NCBI GenBank assembly: GCA_913055795.1
Contig: CAJXLA010000011.1
Coordinates: 1 to 39,915, forward strand
Length of the DNA stretch: 39,915 bases
Direction: 5' to 3'
Source: an uncultured Alcanivorax sp.
GTDB taxonomy: Bacteria; Pseudomonadota; Gammaproteobacteria; Pseudomonadales; Alcanivoracaceae
Part shown: positions 29,824 through 33,783 of the stretch, one piece after another
How the letters are laid out: every line of letters starts with the position of its first letter
Numbering within the stretch: position 1 is the first letter of the stretch
The notes under the pieces: generated by a model
Databases searched by the model: none
The model's input: the letters and a program-made list of their open reading frames with translations, nothing else
What the model was told of the DNA's origin: nothing
Program-made: the position numbers and the translations under genes

Positions 29824-29852
29824 TTGTCGTGAAGGCGGCGTTATGGTATAAA
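29824..29852 (+). promoter_or_regulatory. Candidate rpsB operon promoter
   Basis: TTGTCG (29824-29829), 17-nt spacer, TATAAA (29847-29852), followed by a GC-rich stretch (GCGCTCGCC) like the discriminators of stringently controlled ribosomal promoters. A start near 29859 would give a leader of about 545 nt before rpsB, containing the 266-bp palindromic element at 29929-30194. Confidence 0.65.
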
Positions 29853-29928
29853 GCGCTCGCCTTGCCCGCGCCCGGACCGGGGGCGAATTGTACCTGTACC
29901 GGGCCCGGCAAGGGAAATCGTGGTAACT

Positions 29929-30194
29929 GGAACCTCTGAACGAATCATGCGTGGGGTTTGCCGGGCCATTTTTCGTCTGGGTCAAGGCGCGCCGACGCCG
30001 CCGTACTGCCTGTACGGGTAGGAGGCGCAACGCCGAGCCAGGCGAAAAAGGGCCCGGCCCTCACGGGGTACGGCCAAAATCACGCTGGGTTCGTCGCGTG
30101 TTGGTGGTCGCAGTCGAGCCAGGCGGGCACGGCAGTTACGTCCAGGACAATTTTGGACGTAACAAAGCCCGCGTATGATTCGTTCAGAGGTTCC
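29929..30194. mobile_element. Nested-palindrome element A, in rpsB leader
   Basis: A 266-bp element bounded by a perfect 20-bp inverted repeat (GGAACCTCTGAACGAATCAT at 29929-29948; its reverse complement at 30175-30194), with imperfect pairing continuing inward. A second inverted repeat pairs CCATTTTTCGTCTGG (from 29966) with CCAGGCGAAAAAGG (30038-30051). Between them lies a 62-bp core (29982-30043) identical, in reverse orientation, to 33669-33730 in element B. A further hairpin GTTACGTCC/GGACGTAAC occurs near 30135-30163. No protein, and no clear target-site duplication. Confidence 0.8.
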
Positions 30195-30224
30195 CAATAC
30201 ACACATGTTCCGACACATGGCTTT

Positions 30225-30399
30225 GGGTGCCCAGCACCATGAACGATTCCGCCTGGCGCGGGATGCCGAGTAGGCCGTAACCCGTTGGGGTGCCCAGCAC
30301 CTGAACGGTTCGCCCCGGGGCGGATGCAGGGAACGGCGTACACCGTTCAGGTGCTGGGTTGAGCACATGCGGGAACATGGAGGCTTAACCCAGCAGGAG
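30225..30399 (+). promoter_or_regulatory. Structured rpsB leader with competing helices
   Basis: GGGTGCCCAGCACC occurs twice, 63 nt apart (30225-30238, 30288-30301). The second copy opens a 17-bp stem, CCCAGCACCTGAACGGT (30293-30309) with ACCGTTCAGGTGCTGGG (30342-30358). The right arm can instead pair downstream: TGCTGGGTTGAGC (30352-30364) with GCTTAACCCAGCA (30383-30395), 13 bp with one G-U, ending exactly at the GGAG Shine-Dalgarno (30396-30399). The two helices exclude one another. In E. coli, S2 represses rpsB-tsf through its 5' leader; a comparable role here is inference. The rest of 29742-30405 holds the promoter and element A. Confidence 0.6.
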
Positions 30400-30405
30400 A
30401 CAATG

Positions 30406-31188
30406 ATGGCATCAGTAACGATGCGGGATATGCTCAGCGCCGGCGTGCACTTCGGCCACCAGACCCGCTATTGGAACCCGAAAATGAAACCCTACATTTT
30501 CGGGGCGCGCAACAAGATTCACATTGTGAATCTGGAACAGACCCTGCCGCTGCTCAACGACGCTCTCGCGTACGTCAACAAACTCGCGGCCAACAACAAC
30601 CAGATTCTCTTCGTGGGCACCAAGCGTTCGGCGCAAAAGGTGGTCCGCGAGGAAGCCAAGCGCTGTGGCATGCCCTATGTGGACCACCGCTGGTTGGGCG
30701 GCATGCTGACCAACTGGAAAACCATCCGCCAGTCCATCAAACGCTATCGTGACCTTGAGGAACAGCAGCGCGACGGCACCCTGGACAAGCTCATCAAGAA
30801 GGAAGCGCTGGACCGCCGCCGCGAGATGGACAAGCTGGAGCGTTCCATCGGCGGTATCAAGGATATGGGCGGTCTGCCCGACGCGCTCTTCGTGGTGGAT
30901 GTGGATCACGAGAATATCGCCGTCAAGGAAGCCAACAAACTGGGTATTCCGGTGGTGGCCGTGGTGGACACCAACTCGGATCCGGACGGCGTCGATTATG
31001 TGATTCCCGGCAATGACGACGCCATCCGCGCCGTGCGGCTCTATGTGCAGACCGTGGCCGACGCCGTCCTTGAGGGTCGTCAGTACGCGTCCAATCAGGG
31101 CGGTGGCGGTAGCGAGGATGATTTCGTGGAAGTGGAAGAAGGTGAGGAGCAAGGCGACTCCGAAGACCCGGAATCCGCAACCGGCTGA
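30406..31188 (+). CDS. rpsB: 30S ribosomal protein S2
   Basis: A small-subunit protein needed with S1 for translation initiation. 260 residues. [21 protein letters not shown] and [20 protein letters not shown] are near-universal; [13 protein letters not shown] follows. Two ATGs are adjacent; the one at 30406 gives the standard N-terminus and a 6-nt gap from GGAG. Compared with the 241-residue E. coli protein it has an acidic, Gly-initiated tail ([20 protein letters not shown]). First gene of rpsB-tsf-pyrH-frr. Confidence 0.98.
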
Positions 31189-33621: not shown

Positions 33622-33783
33622 GGAACCTCTGGACGGGTCCTGGAGGGTGCTTGCCACAGCCCATTTTTGCCTGGCTCGGCGTTGCGCCTCCTACCCGTAC
33701 AGGCAGTACGGCGGCGTCGGCGCGCCTTGATCAGACAAAAATGGACAGCGGCAAACACCCTCCAGGACCCGTCCAGAGGTTCC
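33622..33783. mobile_element. Nested-palindrome element B, behind frr
   Basis: A 162-bp element with 34-bp outer inverted repeats (33622-33655 and 33750-33783) matching at 33 of 34 positions, beginning GGAACCTCTGGACGGGTCCT. An inner repeat CCATTTTTG (33661-33669) / CAAAAATGG (33736-33744) encloses the 62-bp core (33669-33730) that is identical, inverted, to 29982-30043. The core centre has CCGTAC/GTACGG. The whole unit can fold as one long hairpin. Outer ends share GGAACCTCTG with element A; arms differ beyond that. Confidence 0.8.

Follow-up and report, generated by a model that had tools for sequence, protein, structure and literature searches.

The rpsB motif reported in the Candidatus Pelagibacter ubique study is built from a P1 stem, a P2 that is short or missing, a P3 of variable size and a pseudoknot formed between J2-3 and the strand that follows P1 (PMC2704228). 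According to the same study, P3 exceeds 12 bp in some Gammaproteobacteria. Autorepression by ribosomal protein S2 through the rpsB leader is established in E. coli, where it is assisted by S1; the operator excludes the ribosome-binding site, and the repression mechanism is called unclear in the review (PMC10931766). A t44 RNA is transcribed 5' of rpsB in Alcanivorax dieselolei, from a start site that is probably common with rpsB (PMC9788540).

The window, which is the whole 39,915-nt stretch of DNA that was analysed, matches a single Rfam family, RF00127 (t44). The match scores above the gathering threshold, covers the full model (1-95) with 118 nt left unmodelled inside P3, and lies immediately 5' of rpsB-tsf:

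30182..30389, + strand: t44 / rpsB leader (RF00127), 52.1 bits (gathering score 44 bits), E 8.9e-9
30396..30399, + strand: Shine-Dalgarno (SD) GGAG, read from the sequence
30406..31188, + strand: rpsB (S2), PF00318, E 4.2e-101, ATG start at 30406 placed by homology
from 31260, 3' of rpsB: tsf, identified from the open reading frames

In the Rfam comparison that the first-pass annotation proposed, the motif that it did not recognise is found to be the known t44 element. Its description of a structured rpsB leader whose pairing extends up to the SD agrees with this match and with the coordinates of inverted repeat I7 (30352-30395), and its suggestion of S2 autoregulation is supported by t44 family membership and the E. 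coli precedent (PMC10931766). The leader folds better than dinucleotide shuffles do (z = -3.23), 1 shuffle in 200 being equally good. The t44 model also matches in 51 of 57 relatives and in 270 of the 369 genomes of the class. Among named S2 proteins, the nearest belong to Alcanivorax and Alloalcanivorax (~80-86% identity), and the window's own family of relatives is therefore probably Alcanivoracaceae.

The window leader is a known, ordinary S2 leader in which P3 is elaborated in a lineage-specific way. It shares with RF00127 the full-length match, the position upstream of rpsB-tsf, P1 and the GGGUGC core, and differs from it by the unmodelled P3 segment, a duplication of J2-3 and the P3 5' arm, a bulged A30365 in P1b and a MITE-like repeat directly upstream. 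With the Pelagibacter study's motif it has in common P1, P3 and a pseudoknot in which J2-3 pairs with the 3' extension, whereas two competing P3 5' arms are not described in the consulted passages of PMC2704228. The E. coli rpsB-tsf operator, which responds to S2 with S1, has the same gene and leader family, so that the same regulator would be expected here (PMC10931766). We consider it highly probable (about 0.85) that the element belongs, as a lineage-specific form, to the t44 / rpsB leaders and acts as an S2-responsive translational operator.

The conserved pairings were defined from the rpsB leaders of relatives, 147 of 161 being anchored on P1 pairing and 123 distinct ones being used for the covariation counts. 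They assign the following strands in the window:

30204..30211, + strand: P1a 5' strand, pairs with 30372-30379; 98.7% of cells paired
30372..30379, + strand: P1a 3' strand, pairs with 30204-30211
30216..30223, + strand: P1b 5' strand, pairs with 30361-30369 with A30365 bulged; pair probabilities 0.80-0.98
30361..30369, + strand: P1b 3' strand, from pair probabilities and covariation among relatives
30224..30228, + strand: J2-3 pseudoknot strand UGGGU, pairs with 30388-30392; from outer-pair covariation and the published pseudoknot (PMC2704228)
30388..30392, + strand: 3' extension pseudoknot strand ACCCA, 3 nt 5' of GGAG; from covariation

P1 carries the conserved internal loop. Covariation of P1a is 5.67 versus 2.19 in shuffles that ignore kinship (0/500; 123 leaders). 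P1b seems unpaired when the window serves as reference, an artefact of the extra A30365; in the shifted, proper register it pairs in 73% and covaries strongly among relatives. The outer pseudoknot pair, 30224 with 30392, is standard in 86 of the 123 leaders, where 52.9 ± 4.8 are expected (0/2000 shuffles, ignoring kinship), and is found as six types (T-A, G-C, C-G, A-T, T-G and G-T). The other four of the five pairs are nearly invariant and the pseudoknot covariation thus amounts to one pair. Slid pairings adjacent to this register give no covariation signal among the 123 leaders, and the J × K pairing gives none inside the window's own family (p = 0.60). Judged from this sequence comparison, the conserved partner of the AACCC that precedes the SD is UGGGU 30224-30228, which lies beyond the interval considered by the first-pass annotation, and not TGCTGGG. 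The end of the ACCC strand is found mostly 10-27 nt 5' of the start codon across the class.

Membership of the family, covariation in P1 and at the outer pseudoknot pair, and the duplication are shown here; the mechanism is a proposal. The transcript would fold into P1 (30204-30223 with 30361-30379), a very long P3 and the pseudoknot of 30224-30228 with 30388-30392. Surplus S2, aided by S1 as in E. coli, would bind and stabilise this operator fold. The pseudoknot next to the SD would then hinder 30S loading, and synthesis of S2 and EF-Ts would fall. For this leader, S2 binding and the block of 30S by the pseudoknot are inferred; speaking against the block is the E. coli operator, which does not include the ribosome-binding site (PMC10931766). 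The way in which S2 represses its mRNA is described as unclear (PMC10931766). In most of the compared leaders covariation places the 3' strand of the pseudoknot ~10-27 nt 5' of the start codon, which makes the pseudoknot, rather than the hairpin, the candidate step. Note that the P3 5' arm and a J-like strand are tandemly duplicated in the window, so that P3 could form with either copy:

30222..30284, + strand: tandem copy A, J2-3 and P3 5' arm in canonical position; 63-nt spacing
30285..30349, + strand: tandem copy B, a second J-like GGGGUGC and the P3 5' arm named by the first-pass annotation (30293-30309)
30342..30358, + strand: the only P3 3' arm, with complementarity to either 5' arm

The 17-bp stem of the first-pass annotation (I3, 30293-30309 with 30342-30358) is exact, 17 of 17 positions pairing, and is the variable P3 of the published rpsB motif. 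Its 5' arm has a second copy upstream at 30222-30238 (17 nt, 94% identical, 63 nt spacing). Copies A and B match at 22 of 24 positions in the arm and at 26 of 38 in the remainder, the latter reached in 0/1000 shuffles. An assembly artefact is disfavoured because the copies are strongly diverged in sequence. The predicted P3 duplex energies are -31.3 kcal/mol for copy A and -44.7 kcal/mol for copy B. In the fold ensemble, a nested model that excludes pseudoknot energy, the 3' arm pairs with copy A in ~90% and with copy B, the pairing of the first-pass annotation, in ~10%; under the same model the two isomers are ~1.5 kcal/mol apart. Counted from J to where P1 ends, the leader spans 155 nt, more than any other of the 123 (the next being 122). 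No comparable duplication is found in the other leaders of the set or in the same-genus genome that was compared. An inserted mobile element as the source of the P3 extension was discarded: a search of the own genome with 30218-30365 gave short chance matches only, and the units are a tandem duplication. A weak mir-2232 hit at 30291-30359 (20.5 bits, gathering 70) is a chance match of the P3 hairpin. The duplication would represent tolerated (neutral) variation, because both isomers keep P1 and the length of P3 is known to vary. The leader is a natural variant with two interchangeable P3 arms.

The leader is preceded by two further elements:

29844..29856, + strand: putative conserved rpsB promoter -10 region (TGGTATAAAGCGC); TGGTATAA is found upstream of the leaders of 128 relatives
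29929..30194, unstranded: MITE-like repeat with 32-nt inverted ends (I1), inserted after the promoter and ahead of the t44 leader

The distance from the -10 region to J2-3 is 374 nt in the window versus a median of 94 (50-214) in the 128 relatives, because the copy of the MITE-like repeat separates the promoter from the leader.

A different regulatory use of the leader was put forward by the first-pass annotation, namely that TGCTGGG (30352-30358) switches partners, pairing either within P3 or in a 13-bp hairpin (30352-30395) abutting the SD. Leaders of the window's family might use this hairpin as an additional regulatory state. The strands of the helix are:

30352..30364, + strand: 5' strand of the alternative 13-bp helix, made of the P3 3' arm and the P1b 3' strand
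30383..30395, + strand: 3' strand of the alternative helix, from the inverted repeat and the fold model

The helices exist as drawn: the second has 13 pairs with one G-U, TGCTGGG is common to both, and GGAG follows at 30396-30399. What finds no support is that these two helices are the conserved switch, the SD-proximal strand coevolving with J2-3 and not with TGCTGGG. Among 129 leaders the perfect 13-pair helix is unmatched in length; at least 13 pairs occur in 0.15% of mismatched leader combinations, so that ~0.2 would be expected per 129. The GGGUU with AACCC core would follow from the design of the t44 family: with GCCC/GGGU closing P3 and AACCC as the pseudoknot strand, the P3 3' strand can always compete to some extent. 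Covariation had been suggested as a check of the switch, and the 13-bp helix is without compensatory changes across the class, the kind of result that the first-pass annotation itself counted against its proposal. None of its variable positions covaries above shuffles that ignore kinship (123 leaders), and across the class strands of matched species do not pair better than those of mismatched species (-9.74 vs -9.56 kcal/mol; 243/2000). The hairpin lies ~3.3 kcal/mol above the ensemble in the nested model, which excludes pseudoknot energy. Within the window's family the competing helix is unusually strong. Most leaders reach at least 10 pairs in it, and the hairpin fold of L026, L038 and L042 comes to within 0.1 kcal/mol of the nested optimum; this family supplies leaders in which the SD hairpin almost equals the operator in stability. 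When matched and mismatched strands are compared at the genus level, p is 0.005 if the window is included and 0.05 if it is left out, on few independent changes, while eleven control stretches (unrelated 17-nt windows) give p 0.07-0.94; the window, however, was chosen for this very hairpin. Within the family, one A decides whether the helix stays intact; a compensatory change accompanies it in the window, and none does in L005, L007, L009 or L034. An SD hairpin is possible, yet the sequences give no sign of its evolutionary maintenance across the class, where the two-helix switch is not supported; it is weakly supported inside the window's family, and we regard it as unlikely.

The duplicated arm allows other readings. 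The two 5' arms might compete for the single 3' arm, giving two operator isomers that place different J strands beside P3, which would tune or time S2 regulation in this species. The small energy gap between isomers and the better match of the copies in the arm than in the remainder are in line with such an exchange, and copy B, being closer to the 3' arm, should form first during transcription. The difference in conservation between arm and remainder is, however, not significant (Fisher p = 0.059), the duplication is confined to this leader within the set, and P3 is the family's variable stem anyway, which makes this reading quite improbable. Equally doubtful is a combination in which the window's family would have gained an SD-sequestering hairpin from the P3/P1b 3' strand, S2 would choose between the pseudoknotted operator and the hairpin, and strand exchange of the duplicated arm would set the balance here. 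Insertions, the MITE upstream and the duplication inside, could alternatively have damaged the leader to the point that regulation is lost: the transcript would be ~280 nt longer, the P3 region is the longest among 123, and the model score is down to 52 bits. None of P1, J2-3, the 3' extension or the conserved internal-loop sequence is disrupted, however, and we hold such a loss to be very unlikely. The preferred reading is an S2-responsive t44 operator.

The MITE-like repeat occurs at least 20 times in this genome, in full or in part, including the copies at 29929-30194 and 33622-33783, and copies are found at loci L102, L104, L105, L107 and L110 as well. It was not found in the same-genus genome, and core matches of only 73-74% occur in 3 others of the 46 family genomes. 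The outer ends of the repeat (GGAACCTC..GAGGTTCC) do not vary; the next 15-20 nt vary by copy and are complementary within each, which may reflect homogenisation of the arms in each copy or selection for the hairpin.

Leaders of two other genera depart from this organization. The rpsB leaders of Psychrobacter (L124, L135, L139, L146, L170) have a P3 region of ~96-122 nt and are without the usual CGnCAC internal-loop sequence, which suggests a divergent S2 leader in this genus. Those of Marinomonas (L118, L130) are without recognisable TGGAGG and P1a sequence and keep GGGGTG and AACCC.
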